61,795 nucleotides of DNA from Candidatus Zixiibacteriota bacterium (lineage in GTDB: Bacteria; Zixibacteria; MSB-5A5; WJJR01), in assembly GCA_036397555.1 (NCBI GenBank), contig DASWIS010000008.1, positions 608,206 through 670,000 of the forward strand, written 5' to 3'. The position numbers and the translations under genes are program-made. A model generated the notes under the pieces. That model worked only from the letters and a program-made list of their open reading frames with translations, made no database searches and had not been told where the DNA came from. Positions 41,883-60,442 of this stretch are shown piece after piece. How positions within the stretch are numbered: position 1 is the stretch's first letter; each line of letters starts with the position of its first letter.

Positions 41883-44800
41883 GTGGTCAGGAATCTCTGC
41901 GTGACCCGCCGTGCCATCATCACCATCGCCGTTCTCGCGCCCACAGTCCTTCTCAGCGCGCGCAGCTCGACAGCACAGGACTCGCTGAAGATCGGAACTG
42001 TCGTCCTCACTCCCGGCGCGCCTGGCCAGGAGATACCGATTTATCTGCAGAATACTGCGTCCCTCAGCAGCGTTCGCGTGCCGCTGGAAATTCGCGCCTT
42101 CAGCACATACCCCACGAGTCTCGCTCTGGGGTATGGCGACCGGCTCCCGTTGCCCGGCCCTCTGGACGCGACTCTGATTTGGGATCACTTCGGCGATACA
42201 CCGATGGGCTGTTATCCCAGCATGGTTCTGGCCTCCGGCGCGGCGCCGGTGAGTTTGACCGGGCTGCGTTGGGGCTTCATGCTTTGGCGCGAAGACCTCA
42301 ATCCCACCAACATGCTCGGACCGGGCACCGATAGCGACGGCTCGATGAAGCTGATCGTCGACATCCCCCCCGGCATTGGGACTTTTACGATCGACACGGC
42401 CTGCATCGCGCCCAGCACCTCCATTCAGTTCATAGACGATCTGGGTATGAATCGCGACGTCAGTTTCGTGAAGGGCAACGTAACCGTCGATAATCGGCCC
42501 GTCATTGTTCCCATTCCTCCCCAATTCGTCAACGAAGGCGACCTCCTCGAGATCACCGTGAGCGCGACCGATGCCGACGGCACGTTTCCGGTCTTATCGG
42601 TTCTGGCGCCCGACATACCGCCGAATGCCAGTTTCATCGACTTAGGCAGCGGCAACGGGACCTTTTCGTTCGCACCGGACTACTCGCAGGCCGGAGTCTA
42701 TAACGTCCGATTCTTCGCCAGCGACGGTCTGTTGCCGGACACCGAGGTCGTCATGATCACAGTTGTCGACGCAGCGCCCCCGGGATCGGCGGATTCGATC
42801 ATCGTCGGTTCCAAAAGGGTTGCCGCCGGACAGACAGATAGTGTCTTCGTTCGACTCGTCAATCGCACACTGACGGTTCAAAGGATGACAGTGCCGTTGC
42901 GGATCGACGCGGGCACGACCGGATCGTTCATCACCGAACTGGCAATCCAATATCGCGAGCGTCTCGGCGTCGCAGGCGTGATGGATGAATCAGTGGCCAC
43001 GGCCCGATATGCCAGTGTCGAACCGGGCGTCTCCTGCTACGGCGAAATCGGCTTCGGCGGCGCATTCGCCTCGAACGACACCAGCATGCATCCGGTCGTT
43101 TCCTCCCCCGAAGGGGTTCTCTACAAACGCGACGCCGGGTTGGCCGCGGGGCCCCTGGCGCCGGAGGCCGACGTCGGCGGCTCGATGATGTTGCGGTTTG
43201 CCGCCAACGACAGCGCCGGTACGTTTACCATCGATCGCACCTGCATCGGCGTGGGACCGACAGACACAGTCGGTCTCTTCGATGGGACAGCCGAGTACGG
43301 CGTATCGTTCGTTCCCGGTGTCATCACCATCAACTCTCCCCCTGTTGCACACGACACCTGTGTCAGCGTCATCGTCGACGAGACGCAACAGATGGAGCTT
43401 CCGGCGACGGACGCTGACGATGACCCGTTGAGCTACGCGATCACCGGCGGCCCCATTGTGGGCGATACCAATTTCTTCAGCGCGGCCGACGGCAGCTTCG
43501 AATACATCGCCCCGTTGCTGCCGGGCACCGACACGATCTATTTCGTGGTCGACGATGGATACAACTCGTCGGACACCGGCTATGTCTGCTTCGAAATACT
43601 GAGCGCTCTGCCGGACACGTTCTGGGTTGACAGCGCGACCGGCGACGACTTCGACAACGACGGCTCCGAGGAGTTCCCGCTGAAGACGATTTCGAAGGCG
43701 ATGGGACTGCCGATCCCGAATCTCGTCGTGATCGTCGGGCCGGGCACCTATCCCGAGCGCGTGTTGTATCCGCAAAATCAAAAGGTCCGGCTCGTCTCCG
43801 AAGAGGGACCGTTTGCGACGCGCATTGTCGGCGACGGCAGCGGCGACGGATCGGCCGTCGTTCTGAATGCCGGCAATGTCGATGATGTTCAGGAATTGAT
43901 CGGGTTTACTGTGGCGGCAAACGTCGTGACGGACTCTGACTGCGACGGCTGCGCCGGGGGGATCACCGTTCGCGAGCCGACACGTGGAAATGTCATCAAC
44001 TGCGTCATCACCAGGAACGCAGGATTGAATGCTGCCGGGGGTATCGAGTACCAGGGAGGCGCCCCCGGCGTGATCGCCGGAAACTGGATCGTGGACAACG
44101 AGGCGGACAACGTCGCCGGAGCCGTGGCGCTGTATGCAACGGCCAACGTGACGTTCCTGAACAACACCGTTGCCTATAACAGCACGACAGGCAAAGACCA
44201 CGCGGGGCTGTTTGTCTCCGGCGTTACGCTGATCGATACGTCCTCGATACTGTTTTTTCAGAATAACATCATCGCCTTCAACGCGCCCGGATACGGATTG
44301 TACGCGTTGGCGGAATCGGAGCCGTTTCCCGAAATACTGCGGAACTGCGTGTACTTTGGCAACGGGAGCGGCAACGCCGTTCCGCCCAATTTCACCTCTC
44401 TGTCGGATTGGAAGTTCACCGATCCGTTGTTCCTTGGCGCCGCCGCCGGCGACTACCATCTGACTTGCCCCTCCCCGGCGCGAAATGCGGGGTACCCATT
44501 CATCCCTCCGGGAGGCGGATTCGATCTCGATGGACAGAGCAGGCCCAACGAAGGGGCGATCGACATTGGCGGCGATGAATTCTATGACGATCACAAGGTC
44601 GCGAGGTTCAGCCCGAGCGACACGTCGGGGTGCGTGCCGTTGGCCGTCACCTTCGTAAACTCCTCCGAGTGCCTTGATGAACAGTTCGCGTGGACATTCG
44701 GGGACGGAGGCAATTCGACGCTGAAGAACCCGACACACTCGTTCGTTAATCCCGGCGACTACACCGTCCGCCTCATCGCGTCCGGTGACTTGGATGCCGA

Positions 44801-47489
44801 CACGGCGTTTGGAACGATATACGTCGCCGCGCCGATCACCGGCGATTATACCATGAGCGCACCCGACGGATGCGCCCCGCATGCCGTCACGTTCGGTTTC
44901 ACCGCCGGCGCCGAGGTCGACTCGATCCATTGGTCGTTCGGCGACGGCGGGTCATCGACGCAACCCGCGCCGACGCACATCTACAACACTCCCGGAGTGT
45001 ACGGCGTCCGCCTCACGCTCGTCAACGCCTGCGACACGATCACCATCACGAAAGCCGACTCGATTCGCGTCGGCATGCGACCCGATGTCGCCATCGTGTC
45101 CTCCTACGATACGGCGGTGCCCCCTGTCTGCAATCCGCACACGGTGGACTTCGATTACATCAGCGATCGCCCGATCGTGGCGTGGTCGTGGGACTTCGGT
45201 GACAACACGACGTCGTCGGACTCGACGCCATCGCACACCTATGCCGAGGGCGACACGTTCAGTGTGCGCCTGATTGTGCAGGGCGAATGCGGAGCCGACA
45301 CGGCCATCCGGCAAAACTACATCAAGTTGGTCCCTCGCCCGACGGCCCTTCCCCGGACCGATACGCTCTTTGGCTGCGCCGGTGTCGACACGATCGCTTT
45401 GATCGGAAACATCACCGGGGCCGTGTCGACGAGCCGCTGGCTGTTCGGGGACGGGGATAGTGCCAACGGAAGCAATGCCTCACATCTCTATGCCGAAGTT
45501 GGACGGTACCTGCCAAAGCTGATTATCACCCATGTCTGCGGGACGGACACAGTCCCGATCCCGGACTCTCTCACCATCGGCTCGATACCGCAGGCGGTAT
45601 TCGATCTGAGCGCCGACAGTCTCTACGAGCCGGAGCTGGTCCAATTCACCGATCAATCGGGAAACAATCCGACCCAATGGTCGTGGCAATTTGGTGATGG
45701 AGCGGTTTCCGCTCTGCCGAGCCCGGCCCATGCCTACGCGCCGGGAGTTTACGCGGCGGGAATGTGGGTGTCAAATCCATGCGGCGCCGATACGTCATCG
45801 GAGCGGACGATTCGCGTCGGCGGTTTTCGCGCCGCCATCCTCGATTCTCTGGGCGCATCCGACGACACAGTGCGCTACTCATTCGAGACAGACACATTGA
45901 TTCTGCCGTACGACCATCCGCTCTATTTCTCCGCCGGATTGACCCCCGTGCCGTCGCGCGGCAGCGTGTCGTTTCAGTTTTCTTCGCAGGGGGACGTGCC
46001 GCCGACAGCCGATGGCATCCTGACCGTGGCGCCGACATCCGACGTGCCGTCGGGAACGTACGAGATCACGCTGTGGGCGGTCGACTCGCTCCGAAACATC
46101 ATCAAAGCCGCGGTCCGGCCGTGGAACCGCGTGGCCAGGTCACTCATCGAGATTGCGCCGGTGCCGCTGGACTTCGGGCGCCTGCTGGTCAACAGTTCCA
46201 TCATGCGCACGCTGACCGTCGTCAACGAAGCGGCCGTCGGTTCCGAGATTCTCGTGCGATTGGAAAAGCCGACATTGGTCGGATCGATGTACACGATGAA
46301 TGCCGATTCGGTTACGCTGGCACCCCAGGCATTCGTCAATTGGATCGTGTCATTCCGTCCCACCACGACCGGCAATCTCCCCGGCTCCGTGCGCATCCGC
46401 TCCAATGATCCGGCCGCCCCGGATACGACGATTATGCTGACCGGCCGTGGCGTATCGGAGCTGATTCCACCGCTGGTGACGGCGACGATCCCCGGGGCGG
46501 ATCAGGAACATTTGGTCAACGGCACACTCCGGGTGGAATTCGATGAGAACATGGTCTTCGGAGGTTTGGACACCGCCGTGCTTGTCAGCAGCCGCAAGGC
46601 CGGCCAGATCTCCGGCACCACGATCACAACCGCACGCACCCTCACCTTCGTGCCGGGCGCCTGGTTTCCCCCGGATGACACGGTAACTCTGACGGTCAGA
46701 GCCGTGATCACCGACAACAACGGAAACCGTCTCGATGGTGACGGCGATCGGATCGAAGAGGGCTCACCCGCCGACGATTTCGTGCTGCGTTTCTTCACGG
46801 GCCCGGCAGTGTATCCCGGCGACGCCAACCATGACGGTCGAGTCGATGAAGCCGATGTTCTGCCGCTGGGACGCTATTGGCGGCTCCTGGGTCCGTCGCG
46901 CCCGGCGGCGTCCAACGCGTTCTTTCTTCAGCCCGCCTTCTCGTGGAACCCGCGCGCGGCGACTCACGCGGATGCCAATGGAGACGGCGAAGTCGACTCG
47001 CTGGACATCTGCCCGATTGCCGAGCATTTCGACTCCGATACCGGCTTGGCCAAGACTCTGATGGCCGAGTGGATTTCCGAGGCGTCGACCTTTCCCGAGG
47101 GGATAGTGGACGCGCTCCTGGCCGCGCTGGAGTACTGCCCCGGAGAAGGTCCCGGTCATGCGGCGCTGGGCGGGATGCTGCGGGAGATTCGGACCAGACA
47201 CCTCGTGCCGGAGGACTACACACTGGCCCAGAACTACCCCAACCCGTTTAATCCATCGACGGTCATCTCGTTTTCGCTCCCTGTGCGTTCGATGGTCACG
47301 TTGTCGATCTATGACGTACTTGGTCGCCGCATCATGACACTGCTGGACGAGGAGCAGCCACCCGGAACACACTGGGTCGGCTGGGACGGGACCGATGAAC
47401 GAGGGGTTTCGATGGCAACCGGGATTTACTTCTACCGTATCGCGACAGGGCGCTTTTCGTCGACACGCAAGATGTTGTTGCTTAAATAG
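41883..47489 (+). CDS. Giant secreted multidomain protein: PKD repeats, beta-helix, dockerin, C-terminal sorting domain
   Basis: The product has 1868 residues and starts with GTG. The domain order is as follows. Signal peptide. Two tandem units of about 230 residues, each a beta-sandwich (pattern VPLEIR / VPLRID) followed by a cadherin/Ig-like module with DADG or DADD. A right-handed beta-helix at about residues 580-905 starting FWVDSATGDDFDNDGSEEFPLKTISKA. Five PKD domains at about 906-1316, each with a W-x-F-G-D-G core (one is FGDN). An OmpL/ASPM-type (choice-of-anchor D) module at about 1420-1525 (LDFGRLLVNSS). A bacterial Ig-like domain with VEFDENM. A type I dockerin at about 1645-1716 (YPGDANHDGRVDEADV, DANGDGEVDSLDI). 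Finally an LAQNYPNPFNPSTVISF sorting domain from about 1780. It is a surface adhesin or scaffold. Confidence 0.9.
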   Translation: MVRNLCVTRRAIITIAVLAPTVLLSARSSTAQDSLKIGTVVLTPGAPGQEIPIYLQNTASLSSVRVPLEIRAFSTYPTSLALGYGDRLPLPGPLDATLIWDHFGDTPMGCYPSMVLASGAAPVSLTGLRWGFMLWREDLNPTNMLGPGTDSDGSMKLIVDIPPGIGTFTIDTACIAPSTSIQFIDDLGMNRDVSFVKGNVTVDNRPVIVPIPPQFVNEGDLLEITVSATDADGTFPVLSVLAPDIPPNASFIDLGSGNGTFSFAPDYSQAGVYNVRFFASDGLLPDTEVVMITVVDAAPPGSADSIIVGSKRVAAGQTDSVFVRLVNRTLTVQRMTVPLRIDAGTTGSFITELAIQYRERLGVAGVMDESVATARYASVEPGVSCYGEIGFGGAFASNDTSMHPVVSSPEGVLYKRDAGLAAGPLAPEADVGGSMMLRFAANDSAGTFTIDRTCIGVGPTDTVGLFDGTAEYGVSFVPGVITINSPPVAHDTCVSVIVDETQQMELPATDADDDPLSYAITGGPIVGDTNFFSAADGSFEYIAPLLPGTDTIYFVVDDGYNSSDTGYVCFEILSALPDTFWVDSATGDDFDNDGSEEFPLKTISKAMGLPIPNLVVIVGPGTYPERVLYPQNQKVRLVSEEGPFATRIVGDGSGDGSAVVLNAGNVDDVQELIGFTVAANVVTDSDCDGCAGGITVREPTRGNVINCVITRNAGLNAAGGIEYQGGAPGVIAGNWIVDNEADNVAGAVALYATANVTFLNNTVAYNSTTGKDHAGLFVSGVTLIDTSSILFFQNNIIAFNAPGYGLYALAESEPFPEILRNCVYFGNGSGNAVPPNFTSLSDWKFTDPLFLGAAAGDYHLTCPSPARNAGYPFIPPGGGFDLDGQSRPNEGAIDIGGDEFYDDHKVARFSPSDTSGCVPLAVTFVNSSECLDEQFAWTFGDGGNSTLKNPTHSFVNPGDYTVRLIASGDLDADTAFGTIYVAAPITGDYTMSAPDGCAPHAVTFGFTAGAEVDSIHWSFGDGGSSTQPAPTHIYNTPGVYGVRLTLVNACDTITITKADSIRVGMRPDVAIVSSYDTAVPPVCNPHTVDFDYISDRPIVAWSWDFGDNTTSSDSTPSHTYAEGDTFSVRLIVQGECGADTAIRQNYIKLVPRPTALPRTDTLFGCAGVDTIALIGNITGAVSTSRWLFGDGDSANGSNASHLYAEVGRYLPKLIITHVCGTDTVPIPDSLTIGSIPQAVFDLSADSLYEPELVQFTDQSGNNPTQWSWQFGDGAVSALPSPAHAYAPGVYAAGMWVSNPCGADTSSERTIRVGGFRAAILDSLGASDDTVRYSFETDTLILPYDHPLYFSAGLTPVPSRGSVSFQFSSQGDVPPTADGILTVAPTSDVPSGTYEITLWAVDSLRNIIKAAVRPWNRVARSLIEIAPVPLDFGRLLVNSSIMRTLTVVNEAAVGSEILVRLEKPTLVGSMYTMNADSVTLAPQAFVNWIVSFRPTTTGNLPGSVRIRSNDPAAPDTTIMLTGRGVSELIPPLVTATIPGADQEHLVNGTLRVEFDENMVFGGLDTAVLVSSRKAGQISGTTITTARTLTFVPGAWFPPDDTVTLTVRAVITDNNGNRLDGDGDRIEEGSPADDFVLRFFTGPAVYPGDANHDGRVDEADVLPLGRYWRLLGPSRPAASNAFFLQPAFSWNPRAATHADANGDGEVDSLDICPIAEHFDSDTGLAKTLMAEWISEASTFPEGIVDALLAALEYCPGEGPGHAALGGMLREIRTRHLVPEDYTLAQNYPNPFNPSTVISFSLPVRSMVTLSIYDVLGRRIMTLLDEEQPPGTHWVGWDGTDERGVSMATGIYFYRIATGRFSSTRKMLLLK

Positions 47490-47782: not shown

Positions 47783-50134
47783 ATGCCGTCGTCCGCCGCC
47801 GACTCCCAAAGTGGGCGAACGGGGGAATCGCCGTTTCGATTCGCCGGCCCCGCCTCGCCTGCTGACGACGCCTTTTTCTATCACATCCTCAAACCCGGCC
47901 GTTACCTCGGCCGTGAATTCGGCATCGCGCCGCGGTCGCACGGACGGTCGGTTGCGTTGGTGTATCCCGGTTCGTACGAGGCGATGTTCGCCGACGCGGG
48001 TTGGCGCCGGGTCAGTGTCCAATTGGCGTCAACAGAGGGCATCGACTGCATGCGCGCATTCGACTATGGTCCCGATCTGTGGATCAAGATTGCCGAGACC
48101 CAGTGCGCGCCCTTCGCTATCGATGGGCGCCGCGATCTCCTCACCGTCGACGAAATCGTCTTTTGGGCCGCCGACGTATTGGCGGCAGCACGCATCCCAT
48201 CGGTCATGCGCAAAATCGGGCGGCCACGGCACGCGCGGCTGGGTGTCATCACGTCGGGAAGCTGGGCGCCCCGATTCCTGATCGGGCATGCCGATTGGGT
48301 CGCGTCCAGTCAGGGTGGTTGGCTCTCGACATCGATCATCGAACTGTTGCGGGGTGCATCGAACGTTCCCTCGGATGTTTGCGACGCCCGTGACGCTGCG
48401 CTATGGGACAAGTATTGGGATGGTCGGCGTCCCTTTCCCGAACCGAGTACGACGCCACAGCGGTACACCGCGCCCGTCCTGTCCAAAGTCGACATCGGGG
48501 AGGATTGCGTCGACGTGGACCTGGAGCGCGTCAACACGCATGGCCAATTGGAATGCCGCTCTCAGACCGCACTCGTGTCGGATGCGCACAGCGGATTGCG
48601 CGCCAGTGGTGTTGACGGTCTGCGGTTTTGCACTGTCGGCGACGGTGATGCGGCAACGCTCGCCGCGGCACTGACCGACCTCGGACGGGTATTCAACACA
48701 CGCACGGTTCGTGCCCAGTGGCCCGCCGTATGCGTCGATGACTTCAACACGTACTGGTCGGGCATCAAGCCGCACTTGATAAAGCCCTCATTCCCGCTGC
48801 TGCTGGCGCACGATTCTGATATTGCCGGTTTGCAGAACGCCGGTCATCGGGCGCTGAACGCCGGATGGCAGTCGCTCGCGCTGGTCATGCGGTTTGCTTC
48901 CTTCGCCGAGGCGATTGCGCTCATCGAACCCGCTCGGGCGATAATCGAATCGTGGGCCCAATCAGCGAATGGTTTTGCCGACCGCCGCTCGTTGCGCCTG
49001 CACTTCGATCCGGCGGAAATCAGCGAGTGGACCGACGCACCGAATGTTCCCGGAGAGGACGATTGGCGCGGGATCGTCGCCGAATTCCGGCATTTCTGTG
49101 AGGCGATGTCGCGCCCGGCGTCTTGCAAACGTTTCGGCCTGGATCAGATCATCGTGCGCAACCTCCTGGCTGTGTCGGGACCGAAAATCTGGGAACCATT
49201 AGCGCTGCTCGACCTGCCCGACCGGGAAGAGCCCGAAATCCCGCCATTCGACTGGCTCTCGTGGTATCGCAGCCAGTCGGGGATGTCGACCGTGCCGGAG
49301 TCGCAGTTCTCCCGCATCGCGCCCTGTCCGAAGCCGCTGCCGCATTCTGAGGATCGCGAGGAAACTCATATCGCAGACGTCGGCGAGTCGTCGATCGAGT
49401 CCTTCGGGCGGCGCAAACGGCGCGCGGCGCTCACGCGACGGCTGGCGGCACCATTGCGCATGCGCATGAGAGTCCGATGGTCCAAAGACGGATCGTGGCG
49501 GTTGTATTCGCATCTGGACATGGTGCGCATCATCGAGCAGTCGATCCGTCGCGCCGGCATCCCGGCGGCGTATTCGGAGGGATTTCACCCGCGTCTCAGA
49601 GTGTCGTACGGCCCGCCGTTGCCGTTCGGGATGACCTCCGACGCGGAATACTTCGATATCATTCTGAATGAAGATTGCGATGATTCGCATGCCGCGGCGT
49701 TGCGCGACGTCATGCCCGAGGGCATATCCATGGTCGAACACCGTGCCATGCCGACAAACATGCCGTCACTATCCGAGTCGATCAACGAGCAGGAGTTTTC
49801 GGCGTTGTTACCGCTTGATGCAAATGTCGCCGCACAGTTGGTCGGTGCGTTCCAAGCCGCGCCACGGGTGGAGTGGCGTCGCCCCGACCGTCCCGAGCGC
49901 AAGCCAGTCGACCCCCGACGCTCGTTGCGTAAAATCAGCCTTGAGCCGGTCGCTGAAGGCATCGAGTGGGTGCAGCACGTCACGATCGGGGGTGAGGGTT
50001 CGATCCGTCCCGCCGATTGGGCGGTCTTGTTGTTTGGACTGTCACCCGAACAGCTCGCGCAGACGATCCTGTGCCGCCGAAACCTCATCTGCCGACGCGG
50101 CACACAGGCAAAGTCGCCATTTGAAATCGTCTAA
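47783..50134 (+). CDS. Degenerate radical SAM (TIGR03960-like) protein fused to a DUF2344 domain
   Basis: The product has 783 residues. The N-terminal 280 residues follow the B12-binding-like start of TIGR03960 radical SAM proteins (ILKPGRYLGREFG, VALVYPGSYEAMFADAGWRRV, DEIVFWAADVLAAARIP). The next part aligns with the radical SAM barrel, but the expected CxxxCxxC motif is absent: the only cysteines are scattered singles (for example LECRS, RFCTV). From about residue 555 the DUF2344 domain is clear (RMRVRWSKDGSWRLYSHLDMVRIIEQSIRRAGIPAAYSEGFHPR..). In other bacteria the fused protein sits near Rne/Rng and L21 genes; none are near here. The start could be 47747 (GTG). Confidence 0.82.
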   Translation: MPSSAADSQSGRTGESPFRFAGPASPADDAFFYHILKPGRYLGREFGIAPRSHGRSVALVYPGSYEAMFADAGWRRVSVQLASTEGIDCMRAFDYGPDLWIKIAETQCAPFAIDGRRDLLTVDEIVFWAADVLAAARIPSVMRKIGRPRHARLGVITSGSWAPRFLIGHADWVASSQGGWLSTSIIELLRGASNVPSDVCDARDAALWDKYWDGRRPFPEPSTTPQRYTAPVLSKVDIGEDCVDVDLERVNTHGQLECRSQTALVSDAHSGLRASGVDGLRFCTVGDGDAATLAAALTDLGRVFNTRTVRAQWPAVCVDDFNTYWSGIKPHLIKPSFPLLLAHDSDIAGLQNAGHRALNAGWQSLALVMRFASFAEAIALIEPARAIIESWAQSANGFADRRSLRLHFDPAEISEWTDAPNVPGEDDWRGIVAEFRHFCEAMSRPASCKRFGLDQIIVRNLLAVSGPKIWEPLALLDLPDREEPEIPPFDWLSWYRSQSGMSTVPESQFSRIAPCPKPLPHSEDREETHIADVGESSIESFGRRKRRAALTRRLAAPLRMRMRVRWSKDGSWRLYSHLDMVRIIEQSIRRAGIPAAYSEGFHPRLRVSYGPPLPFGMTSDAEYFDIILNEDCDDSHAAALRDVMPEGISMVEHRAMPTNMPSLSESINEQEFSALLPLDANVAAQLVGAFQAAPRVEWRRPDRPERKPVDPRRSLRKISLEPVAEGIEWVQHVTIGGEGSIRPADWAVLLFGLSPEQLAQTILCRRNLICRRGTQAKSPFEIV

Positions 50135-50176: not shown

Positions 50177-51445
50177 ATGATCAGAGCCGATCTCGTCATT
50201 TACGGCGCCCGGCAACTGGTGACGCTCGCGGACGTGACAGTCCCGCCGGGACCGCGTCGCGGACACGATCTGGCGGAGTTGTCGGTTATCGAACAGGGAG
50301 CGCTGGCTGCCAGGGACGGCAAGATTGTATGGATCGGACCCGCCGACGCACTGCCCCGTCAGGTTTCCCAATTGTCGGGCTGTGGTGTCTTCGACGCCAC
50401 CGGGCATGTCGTCACGCCCGGACTCGTCGATCCCCACACTCATCTGGTCTTCGCCCGCGGACGCGCCGTCGAGTTCTCCCAGCGGGCCGCGGGGAAAAGT
50501 TACAGCGAGATTGCCCAGGCGGGGGGAGGGATCGCCCGCTCGGTGGCCGACCTCAGAGCCGGTGCGTTCGACGAGCTGTGTCGCAACGCCGGAAAGATTG
50601 CATCCCGGATGTTGACTTACGGAACGACAACCGCTGAAGCAAAGAGCGGGTACGGCCTGGATCTGGAACATGAACTGAAGATGTTGCGCGCCATCCGAAC
50701 CGTGGACTCGTCCCACGCGATCGATCTCGTGCCGACGGCATTGCCCGCGCACACCATCCCCGTCGAGTACCGGAGCAGACCGTCCGACTATGTCGATCTC
50801 GTCTGCCATGAAATCCTGCCGGCGGTTGCACGTGAGAAGCTGGCTGTGTTCAATGATATTTTTGTCGAATCCGGCGCCTTCAGCATCGCTTGGGCCGAAC
50901 GCATCCAGTCAGCCGCTGCCTCGCTCGGATTCGGACTCCGGTTTCATGTCGATCAACTCAGCCCGATGAAGGGTACCGAACTGGCGGTGCGGCTGGGGGC
51001 TATCTCTGCCGACCACCTCGATTTCATCTCCGACGATGGAATCCGGTGCCTCGCCGACAGCACGACGATCGGTGTACTGATCCCCGGGGTCTCTTATTTT
51101 CTGGATTGCACGCAGCGTCCCCCGGCGCGGCGCATGATCGAAGCCGGTGTCGCCGTTGCGCTGGCGACCGACTGCAACCCCGGCAGCAACATGTGCGAAT
51201 CGATGACGCAGACGATGAATCAGGCATGTGTTCTCTACAGAATGTCTCCCGAGGAAGCGCTCACCGCCGCGACCGTCAACGCCGCATGGTCGCTTCAGCG
51301 TGCCGATCGCATCGGCTCGCTGTCGGTCGGGAAACAATGCGATTGTGTGATATGGGATACCGACGATTACCGGGATTTATCCTATCATTACGGCGTGAAT
51401 CTCGCGGTTCATGTCATCAAGAACGGGATGCGCGCGGCCCCATGA
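50177..51445 (+). CDS. hutI: Imidazolonepropionase
   Basis: HutI opens imidazolone-5-propionate to N-formimino-L-glutamate in histidine degradation. The product has 422 residues of the amidohydrolase fold. Metal ligands His87 and His89 are in DPHTHLVFARG; the substrate loop GKSYSEIAQAGGGI, the motif YGTTTAEAKSGYGLD and the late ATDCNPGSN are all present. No other hut genes (hutH, hutU, hutG) are in the window. The stop overlaps the next start by four bases. Confidence 0.95.
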   Translation: MIRADLVIYGARQLVTLADVTVPPGPRRGHDLAELSVIEQGALAARDGKIVWIGPADALPRQVSQLSGCGVFDATGHVVTPGLVDPHTHLVFARGRAVEFSQRAAGKSYSEIAQAGGGIARSVADLRAGAFDELCRNAGKIASRMLTYGTTTAEAKSGYGLDLEHELKMLRAIRTVDSSHAIDLVPTALPAHTIPVEYRSRPSDYVDLVCHEILPAVAREKLAVFNDIFVESGAFSIAWAERIQSAAASLGFGLRFHVDQLSPMKGTELAVRLGAISADHLDFISDDGIRCLADSTTIGVLIPGVSYFLDCTQRPPARRMIEAGVAVALATDCNPGSNMCESMTQTMNQACVLYRMSPEEALTAATVNAAWSLQRADRIGSLSVGKQCDCVIWDTDDYRDLSYHYGVNLAVHVIKNGMRAAP

Positions 51446-52056: not shown

Positions 52057-53013
52057 ATGACGAATCCTCGAGTACCGTGTAAGCAGTTGCTGCTGGCGCT
52101 ATCGCTGACCGCAGCAGCAGCCGGCGTTTCAGCGCGCTCATGGGCTGCCGAACCCGGAAAGGCCGGTTATCTCTTCCTGACAGTCGGTCCGGATGCCCGC
52201 GCCGAAGGAATGGGAGGCGCCCAGACCGCAGTTGCCGATGGTCTCTCTGCGATCAGCTACAACCCGGCATCTCTGGCCGATGCCCGGCCGCGCGACTGGA
52301 CTTTGTCCTACACCAACTGGGTCACAGACATCCAGAGTGGGTTCATGGCCGCCGCAATACCGATTGGATCGGGCCTGATGATGGCGGCCGGCATTCAATA
52401 CTTTGATTACGGCGATTTTGACGGTTTCGACGGAGATGGCGTGGCGTCCGGACAGTTCGGCGCATCCGACTTCTCTGGGGCGCTGACTGTGGCCGGTCGG
52501 GTCGGCGCGCCGGCTGCCTGGGGCGTAACGGGCCGGTTCATCAGCGAATCGATCGACAGCGAATCGTCAACGGGTTTTGCGCTCGATGCCGGGGCGCGAT
52601 ATGAGTTGGGCGACGGACGCACACGCGTTGGCGCATCGATTCGCCACTTGGGATCGCAAACAAAGGCGCTCGGCGGCGGGAAGAAGGATGACCTGCCGGT
52701 GACTGGTACATTCGGAATTGCCCATCGGCTGCGAGGCGCGCCGCTCCTCGCCGCGCTGGATATTGTCAAACCCAGCGACGATGACTTCGGATTTCTGGGT
52801 GGACTGGAATTTGCCGGTCTGAAACCGTTGACTCTTCGTGCAGGATACAATTCTCTGACCGGACAAATCGAGACCGGTTCGGGCCGCGACGATCTGGCAG
52901 GGTTCAGCATCGGCATCGGTATCCTGCTGCGCGGCATGATGCTCGACTATGCCTATGGTTCGCTCTCTGTGCTGGGCGACTCACACCGGTTCGGGCTGCG
53001 CTCGGCGATCTAA
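52057..53013 (+). CDS. PorV/PorQ family outer-membrane protein
   Basis: The product has 318 residues. A signal peptide is followed by KAGYLFLTVGPDARAEGMGGAQTAVADGLSAISYNPASLADA, the entry motif of the PorV/PorQ (FadL-like barrel) family. The remainder is a run of antiparallel strands ending with the aromatic-rich HRFGLRSAI. PorV proteins shuttle type IX cargo from the translocon to the attachment complex, which would fit the two sorting-domain proteins in this window. The ribosome site is GGAG, seven bases before the ATG. Confidence 0.88.
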   Translation: MTNPRVPCKQLLLALSLTAAAAGVSARSWAAEPGKAGYLFLTVGPDARAEGMGGAQTAVADGLSAISYNPASLADARPRDWTLSYTNWVTDIQSGFMAAAIPIGSGLMMAAGIQYFDYGDFDGFDGDGVASGQFGASDFSGALTVAGRVGAPAAWGVTGRFISESIDSESSTGFALDAGARYELGDGRTRVGASIRHLGSQTKALGGGKKDDLPVTGTFGIAHRLRGAPLLAALDIVKPSDDDFGFLGGLEFAGLKPLTLRAGYNSLTGQIETGSGRDDLAGFSIGIGILLRGMMLDYAYGSLSVLGDSHRFGLRSAI

Positions 53014-58819: not shown

Positions 58820-60442
58820 ATGTCCGCTGACCACAAGCATCACACTGAACAGTGGGGAACCCGGCTCGGCGTGATCCTTGCCGTCTCGGGATCCGCTGTC
58901 GGCCTGGGGAACTTTCTGCGTTTCCCCGGCCAGGCAGCGGCCAACGGTGGTGGGGCATTCATGATCCCGTATTTCTGCGCCCTGCTGCTTGTTGGCATCC
59001 CGATCGGCTGGGCGGAGTGGACGATGGGACGCTACGGCGGACTGAAGGGCCTGCACTCGGCGCCGTCGATTCTGGGGGTGTTTGCCAAGGGCGGCATAGG
59101 ACGGTATTTGGGTGTCATCGGTGTGCTCATTCCTTTGGCAGTGTCGTTCTACTACACCTACATCGAGGCATGGTGCCTTGGCTATTTCTGGCAGTATATC
59201 TCCGGTGGCATGGGAATCGACGCGGCCGCGCCGATCGCCGAGCAGACGGCGCGCGCCGCGGAGTTCTACTCGGATTTCACGGGTCGCGGGCAAAACGGCG
59301 TCATCGCGGGCGGGTCGCTGGCGACGTTCGTGTTTTGGGTGGTCACGTTCGGCATCAATATCTGGCTCGTGTTCCGTGGCATTTCCCGCGGTATCGAGAA
59401 GTTCGTCAGTTGGGCCATGCCGATCATGGCCGTCTGCGCGGTGATCGTCCTGATTCGCGTCCTGACGCTCGGGACACCCGACCCCGCGCATCCCGAGCAG
59501 AGCGTTGTTAACGGTCTTGGGTATATGTGGAATCCCGACTTCAAAGCGCTGGGGAATCCGCAGACATGGCTGGCCGCAGCCGGGCAGATTTTTTTCAGCT
59601 TGTCGGTGGGATTCGGCGTCATCATCAACTACGCATCGTACATGAAGCGTAAAGACGATGTCGTTCTCTCCGGATTGACTGCGTCGGCCACCAACGAACT
59701 CTTTGAAGTGGGATTTGGCGGATTGATCACGCTGACTGCCGCATTCGTGTTTCTCGGCACGTCCAACATCATCGGCGCAGTGCAGGGCGGGACGTTCGGG
59801 CTCGGCTTTACGACGCTCCCGGTGGTATTCGCCCACATGGGACCGATCGGCAACATCATCGGCGCCATCTGGTTTCTGATGCTGTTTTTGGCGGCGGTGA
59901 CCAGCTCCATCTCCATGTATCAGCCCGCATTGGCGTTCATTCGCGAGTCGCTGGGATGGAATCGGCTACGCGCAACGACTCTGATGGTCGGCATCTGTGT
60001 CGTTGGCTCAGCGCTGGTGATGTACTACAGCCGCGATGGCTTGTTCTGGTCCACCATCGACGACTGGGTCGGTACGTTCCTGATTTTTGTTCTGGCCATG
60101 GTACAGATCATTTGCTTCAGTTGGGTGTTCGGCATTGACCGTGGGATGAAGCTCGCCCACCAGGGATCGCACGCAAAGATTCCCCGCGCGTATCGATTTA
60201 TCATGAAGTATGTGACGCCGACTTATCTGGTCGTGGTCTTCATCGCGTTCTGCTGGAGCAACCTCGGTTCCTGGGTCGGTTCGATCTTCGCTGATGTCGA
60301 TCGGCCGTATGCTCCGGGACTGCGGCAAGGGGCGATGATCCTGATTGCCGGCGTGACGATCCTACTGGTCATTCTGACACGGATCGGCGAGAAACGTTGG
60401 CGGGCAGCCGGGCTCGACATCGACGGGAAAAAGGACGATTAG
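58820..60442 (+). CDS. Sodium-dependent transporter of the NSS (SNF) family
   Basis: The product has 540 residues with 12 expected membrane helices. The first helix holds the sodium/substrate signature WGTRLGVILAVSGSAVGLGNFLRFPGQAAANGGGAFMIPY, close to LeuT and MhsT. The family imports amino acids (or related compounds) with sodium; the substrate is not readable. GGAGGG lies nine bases before the ATG. A 49-residue membrane protein follows immediately, as is usual for MetP/MetS-type pairs. Confidence 0.94.
   Translation: MSADHKHHTEQWGTRLGVILAVSGSAVGLGNFLRFPGQAAANGGGAFMIPYFCALLLVGIPIGWAEWTMGRYGGLKGLHSAPSILGVFAKGGIGRYLGVIGVLIPLAVSFYYTYIEAWCLGYFWQYISGGMGIDAAAPIAEQTARAAEFYSDFTGRGQNGVIAGGSLATFVFWVVTFGINIWLVFRGISRGIEKFVSWAMPIMAVCAVIVLIRVLTLGTPDPAHPEQSVVNGLGYMWNPDFKALGNPQTWLAAAGQIFFSLSVGFGVIINYASYMKRKDDVVLSGLTASATNELFEVGFGGLITLTAAFVFLGTSNIIGAVQGGTFGLGFTTLPVVFAHMGPIGNIIGAIWFLMLFLAAVTSSISMYQPALAFIRESLGWNRLRATTLMVGICVVGSALVMYYSRDGLFWSTIDDWVGTFLIFVLAMVQIICFSWVFGIDRGMKLAHQGSHAKIPRAYRFIMKYVTPTYLVVVFIAFCWSNLGSWVGSIFADVDRPYAPGLRQGAMILIAGVTILLVILTRIGEKRWRAAGLDIDGKKDD

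Follow-up and report, generated by a model that had tools for sequence, protein, structure and literature searches.

Repeated loss of the radical-SAM motif from a TIGR03960-DUF2344 fusion protein in a class of Zixibacteria, with constraint kept on DUF2344

The closest described system to the gene analyzed here is the intact TIGR03960-TIGR03936 fusion. Proteins of this type, such as P0002 (see below), have the same domain order as P0001, the protein encoded at the locus under study, with a homologous N-terminal half and a similar DUF2344 domain. P0001, in contrast, lacks the cluster loop, keeps 13 of 69 conserved columns in its middle part and has its constraint moved to DUF2344. TIGR03936/DUF2344 (PF10105) also occurs as a stand-alone protein in Bacillota and Chloroflexota, and P0001 matches this family over its full length, well above the cut-off; in complete loci of Bacillota the stand-alone gene adjoins a Cys-bearing radical-SAM gene, whereas P0001 has no adjacent intact partner. 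The B12-dependent radical-SAM methyltransferases MgmA, CysS and TsrM, as well as MiaB, align to the N-terminal half of P0001, which differs from them in lacking the [4Fe-4S] ligands. Finally, the pseudouridine synthases TruA, Pus1 and PUS3 share with DUF2344 a predicted fold over 190-210 residues and detectable sequence similarity, but DUF2344 is missing the Asp of the TruA RTDAGVHA motif, which we take to be the catalytic residue. One published study lists DUF2344 in Pfam's pseudouridine-synthase clan (PMC7955657), so the link itself was already known. In the literature searched, no function was found for the widespread TIGR03960/TIGR03936 pair. While the component families are known, the pseudo-radical-SAM variant and its repeated origin, neither of which was found in that literature, appear to be new. 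To our knowledge, it is unusual for a radical-SAM active site to be lost repeatedly while the domain fused to it is retained.

The window, that is the whole stretch of 61,795 nucleotides that was analyzed (contig DASWIS010000008.1, positions 608,206 to 670,000 of the forward strand, from a Candidatus Zixiibacteriota bacterium), carries an open frame on the + strand that ends at 50134 and starts at GTG 47747 (795 aa) or ATG 47783 (783 aa). The following features were assigned:

47783-50134, + strand: coding sequence of the motif-less TIGR03960/DUF2344 fusion, P0001, 783 aa from the ATG; orthologs are open over equal length.
47852-48352, + strand: N-terminal Rossmann-like domain, a predicted B12-binding-type remnant, residues 24-190 (AlphaFold2 model, TIGR03960 match at residues 33-127, VIA-align to B12 radical-SAM enzymes).
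48488-49327, + strand: eroded radical-SAM barrel, residues ~236-515 (model, structure and profile alignments; 13 of 69 conserved columns kept).
48527-48556, + strand: site of the lost cluster loop, residues 249-258, facing RGCxxxCRFCQAG of intact relatives (alignments).
49334-49447, + strand: disordered linker, residues 518-555 (pLDDT <50).
49448-50131, + strand: DUF2344/TIGR03936 domain, residues 556-783, with a predicted TruA-type fold lacking the catalytic Asp (HMM, model, structure and profile comparison).
50177-51445, + strand: hutI (imidazolonepropionase), the next gene downstream (TIGR01224, 425.7 bits).

A first-pass annotation made from the sequence alone had described the locus as a TIGR03960-DUF2344 fusion without a CxxxCxxC motif, and a regular-expression search of the full protein indeed found none anywhere in P0001. 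The "six or so" N-terminal Cys residues counted there were too few, as 10 of the 13 in P0001 precede the DUF2344 domain, but none of the 13 is common to all same-order orthologs, the best kept, C283, being found in 5 of 8 same-order rows with a residue at that column. DUF2344 is matched by TIGR03936 at residues 561-768 with 150.6 bits (cut-off 71.9) and by PF10105 with 127 bits (cut-off 23.8). The TIGR03960 half is barely recognisable: its model aligns to residues 33-127 only, at 16.2 bits (E 0.0028), far below the cut-off of 462.3 bits that defines membership. Searches for Pfam B12-binding or Radical_SAM_N2 domains in P0001 gave no match, leaving DUF2344 as the sole Pfam domain at E 0.01. With CxxxCxxC absent and its loop deleted, P0001 falls outside the active radical-SAM proteins.

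The N-terminal half does align with radical-SAM proteins, as the first-pass annotation had assumed. A profile of seven full-length same-order motif-less proteins matched the profile of intact class members with an hhalign E value of 1.9e-30 over 457 columns; TruA as a control query in the same comparison gave E 0.23. In the alignments, the loop carrying the motif is gone between R249 and about C258 of P0001, and VEIMRGCxxxCRFCQAG of the intact relatives stands opposite a gap after VDLER. Among the columns common to at least 90% of 25 intact rows, P0001 keeps 16 of 54 in the N-terminal part, 13 of 69 in the middle and 18 of 21 in DUF2344. An AlphaFold2 model of P0001 had a mean pLDDT of 85.3 and a pTM of 0.86 (42-row alignment). 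Modelled residues 56-466 were aligned by VIA-align to the B12 radical-SAM enzyme MgmA with Z 15.3 (rmsd 4.0, 344 residues), and the modelled N-terminal half to CysS, TsrM and MiaB with Z 12.3, 12.2 and 11.2, respectively. The N-terminal 460 residues are homologous to B12/radical-SAM relatives, the cluster loop being deleted, and this half, which by fold belongs to the radical-SAM superfamily (partial TIM barrel), keeps a predicted B12/radical-SAM-type fold without cluster ligands and with few other conserved residues.

Same-locus orthologs were found in five of the six family mates (G001-G005) and in both order mates (G007, G008) among 38 related genomes searched. All seven likewise lack the motif cysteines, which leaves the earlier suggestion of a pseudo-radical-SAM protein standing. 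Directly downstream, hutI is present in 8 of 8 f1/f2 loci, including the window, with gaps of 17-78 bases. Close pairs usable for dN/dS were few. In the close same-family pair G003/G005, dN/dS was 0.018 for DUF2344, 0.078 for the middle part and 0.109 for the N-terminus; in the more distant same-family pair G002/G004 the corresponding values were 0.276, 0.265 and 0.435, with dS >1 and near-saturated. The G005 gene consists of two contig-end pieces and was left out of trees and pair counts. The motif-less gene is under purifying selection. Of the proposal that a pseudo-radical-SAM protein is kept for binding or as a scaffold, the part concerning its being kept holds (dN/dS 0.02-0.11 in the closest pair), and binding or scaffolding would be the likeliest reading of its role. 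The annotation had also noted that the usual Rne/L21 neighbours are absent. RNase E/G is located on a different contig and L21 about 54 kb from the window gene, and an intact copy on contig C31 of the same genome lacks these neighbours as well. Their absence carries no weight, however, because the single-copy gene of the class sits beside rsmB rather than Rne/L21, and this context was dropped as evidence. A 447-aa neighbour family taken for RNase G proved to be RsmB.

The class was surveyed in 132 genomes, and the motif region was read in every genome whose sequence reached it. TIGR03936 scored above its cut-off in 122 genomes and TIGR03960 in 98; among high-quality genomes, 77 of 78 had DUF2344 above cut-off, the exception (G021) giving a weak match only. 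The native gene could be judged in 116 genomes, of which 92 have the motif and 24 have lost it. The 16 genomes left without a verdict comprise seven with partial genes at contig ends (G026, G042, G049, G058, G075, G079, G092), eight without a usable match (G018, G021, G051, G057, G064, G073, G091, G131) and G006, with an acquired copy (see below) only. Eight of the 24 motif-less genomes belong to the window's order, 13 others have full or nearly full-length proteins (G011, G016, G020, G023, G030, G034, G037, G061, G080, G096-G099), and in three (G028, G059, G060) the radical-SAM half is gone and DUF2344 stands alone. No other TIGR03960-DUF2344 gene with the motif was found in the 16 motif-less genomes outside the order. 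The stages of decay range from two of three Cys left (G080; G011/G037) through remnant loops and a deleted loop to loss of the whole half. Since G080 passes the TIGR03960 cut-off narrowly (463.4 bits) with its first Cys gone, the TIGR03960 score alone would miss recent losses. Outside Zixibacteria, all 31 fused proteins reaching the motif in a sample of 80 loci have it.

With loss treated as irreversible, nine separate losses are needed on the DUF2344 tree, reduced from 74 rows to the 46 of native class genes (23 motif-less and 23 of the 92 intact); in 100 bootstrap trees the number was 8 (6 trees), 9 (92 trees) or 10 (2 trees). Among the class loci, rsmB lies downstream of 20 of the 23 intact genes, all 13 motif-less genes and all three DUF2344-only genes; in the window's order, all seven full-length loci have hutI there. 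Because these neighbours are kept, decay occurred in place. Transfer of one motif-less version among lineages is disfavoured, as the motif-less genes cluster by family with their intact counterparts and still have rsmB beside them.

Two kinds of additional gene were encountered in the survey. Besides its intact native gene, G038 carries a separate DUF2344 gene (L089:1366-2328, 321 aa) that groups with other phyla and was not counted as a native-locus gene. Several families carry second, shorter TIGR03960-like proteins of ~550-640 aa (for example G121:C115, G122:C176, G125:C114, G126:C22 and G009:C37); the three that were read (L090, L091, L095) carry the Cys motif and gave no match to DUF2344.

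Conservation within the protein differs sharply between the two groups. DUF2344 exceeds the rest of the protein in conservation in 4 of 253 pairs of intact class members, 0 of 153 pairs from outside and 0 of 36 pairs of the acquired copy, as against 21 of 21 same-order and 78 of 78 other motif-less pairs. In same-order motif-less rows, mean identity is 0.33 for the N-terminal and middle parts versus 0.45 for DUF2344; mean DUF2344 identity is 0.37 among intact class members versus 0.36 among the other motif-less ones. Motif-less members are constrained mainly in DUF2344, whereas in intact members the pattern is the opposite. As DUF2344 is conserved with or without an intact radical-SAM half, we conclude that the domain has a role for which radical-SAM chemistry is not needed. 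The motif-less proteins separate the two halves naturally, the remaining activity being the job of DUF2344 without radical chemistry, and the function of DUF2344 is thereby open to direct testing.

The DUF2344 domain was modelled with a pLDDT of 95.2 (70-row alignment). Foldseek matched the model to TruA, Pus1, PUS3 and PUS10 with E down to 7.5e-8, and VIA-align to pseudouridine synthases gave Z 11.4-13.8 over ~190-210 residues (12.8-13.7 for the best TruA and PUS3 chains), in agreement with a two-repeat, TruA-like fold. Moreover, chain 6sga_FB of a mitoribosomal small-subunit assembly intermediate ("mt-SSU assemblosome") aligned with Z 12.4; from its place in the match list, we read this chain as pseudouridine-synthase-like. 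Comparison of the DUF2344 and TruA profiles by hhalign gave E 4.5e-5 (probability 68.8, 62 columns) at the default setting and no useful match in global mode. The DUF2344 HMM matched 15 of 19 class TruA proteins above the HMMER inclusion threshold, and five weak TIGR03936 matches of the class survey fall inside TruA genes. Because a sequence search of DUF2344 against solved structures reached E 0.37-0.44 at best, the link to TruA rests on fold, profile comparison and these weak TIGR03936 matches. At the column opposite the TruA Asp, all 70 DUF2344 rows have P, A, S or T, and none has Asp there or at either neighbouring column; the RTDAGVHA Asp of active TruA-type synthases is therefore lacking. 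Equating YSxGFHP of DUF2344 with TDAGVHA of TruA was not borne out, as hhalign and hmmsearch place the register ~15 residues later. The comparisons support for DUF2344 a predicted TruA-type pseudouridine-synthase fold without Asp at the catalytic position. Its net charge is mostly positive, with means of +6.6 and +7.8 in two motif-less groups, and ranges from 0 to +12 across motif-less same-order rows, so that the domain is not uniformly basic.

The explanation that we consider probable is that the window gene represents the class's native ortholog of the B12/radical-SAM-DUF2344 fusion, with the radical-SAM active site deleted, and that it encodes an RNA-binding protein consisting of a dead pseudouridine-synthase fold and a radical-SAM remnant. 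The evolutionary part is held with far greater confidence than the whole; the RNA part stands at about an even chance. The protein would have gone on being used despite this deletion. DUF2344 may bind folded RNA (tRNA or rRNA) and, in intact members, would hand it to the B12/radical-SAM domain to be modified. Motif-less members would be left with RNA binding alone, acting as an RNA chaperone or ribosome-assembly-type factor, with the old barrel persisting as a structural remnant. RNA binding, the identity of the RNA and a role at the ribosome are suggested by the fold, the neighbours (rsmB, mtaB, miaB) and the mostly positive charge; a pseudouridine-synthase fold by itself shows no function. 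Against the RNA reading counts the position of the window copy beside hutI, which is not a translation gene, and against the explanation as a whole the fact that the acquired intact copy in the same genomes also keeps DUF2344, so that a shared pathway is possible. More tentatively, at slightly less than an even chance, DUF2344 could be an old, radical-SAM-independent, non-catalytic RNA-binding factor of pseudouridine-synthase fold, acting in ribosome or tRNA maturation. About nine times in one class, destruction of the B12/radical-SAM enzyme fused to it would have dissected it out, in the extreme leaving nothing but DUF2344; in one order, the native motif-less gene and the acquired intact gene would each have taken one of the two jobs.

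The intact copy in the window's genome (G000) lies on contig C31, a different contig from the motif-less gene, and encodes a TIGR03960-TIGR03936 protein (P0002, 940-955 aa, CTEGCRFC, 653.4 bits) followed by mtaB and miaB. All nine genomes of the order have such a copy, among them the eight whose native gene is motif-less, whether full or partial; neither rsmB nor hutI was found downstream of it in the nine loci, two of which are too short to tell. Its radical-SAM half groups with other phyla, as does its DUF2344 (90/94), while the DUF2344 of the window gene groups with the class (96/83, DUF2344 tree). The window gene is probably native and the intact copy acquired, the alternative being that the intact copy is an old paralog retained in this order alone. 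Duplication followed by decay inside the order is disfavoured, since the f1/f2 intact copy falls outside the class in both the radical-SAM-half and the DUF2344 trees; an earlier full-length tree had no outside rows and thus no bearing on this question. The coexistence of both genes in all eight genomes would suit a motif-less protein acting as non-catalytic partner or regulator of its intact paralog, as would their opposite constraint: in all 21 genome pairs, the rest of the protein is less well conserved than DUF2344 in the motif-less version and better conserved than DUF2344 in the intact one. Yet the two genes are on different contigs in G000, and outside the order a motif-less (13) or DUF2344-only (3) gene is the sole copy in 16 genomes. 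A partner is therefore not generally needed, and we regard such a partnership as unlikely.

It appears very doubtful that remodelling gave the barrel a new activity other than radical-SAM chemistry. The N-terminal half is well predicted and under purifying selection (dN/dS 0.08-0.11 in G003/G005), as such an activity would have it, but it has no conserved Cys and few conserved residues, is less conserved than DUF2344 in same-order rows (0.33 against 0.45) and is wholly gone in G028, G059 and G060. It is likewise quite improbable that DUF2344 is an RNA-modifying enzyme with a non-standard catalytic residue whose activity has been kept: the enzyme-type fold and the near-invariant His, Arg, Glu and Asp positions across the 70 sequences speak for it, and P, A, S or T at the catalytic Asp position in all 70 against it.

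A decaying pseudogene is disfavoured and extremely unlikely. The graded series from two remaining Cys through an eroded half to its complete loss might suggest one, but the frame is open in all full-length relatives read, DUF2344 has a dN/dS of 0.018 in G003/G005 and its identity is unaltered by the loss (0.37 and 0.36). An assembly error or frameshift hiding the cysteines, which the first-pass annotation had raised, is refuted, as no support for it was found, the frame is unbroken and separately assembled orthologs share the loop deletion.

A motif-less f1-type gene with 45% identity to P0001, followed by hutI, was also found in a sequence titled Acidobacteria (L101, JACQDE010000018.1), which is probably a misnamed genome bin. 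As to other genes of the window, 41883-47489 (+), directly upstream of the fusion gene, encodes a secreted-looking protein of 1868 aa in which PKD-like repeats, dockerin-like segments and a C-terminal sorting-signal-like tail were named by eye; in most loci of the order, relatives (family F5) are found close to the motif-less gene. Downstream, 52057-53013 (+) encodes a PorV/UPF0164-like outer-membrane protein (Pfam 22.3 bits, below the cut-off), with relatives in L054 that precede the DUF2344-only gene by ~6 kb, and the gene family that follows it is conserved beside the locus in the order. Further on, 58820-60442 (+) encodes a sodium-dependent transporter (NF037979, 58.6 bits).
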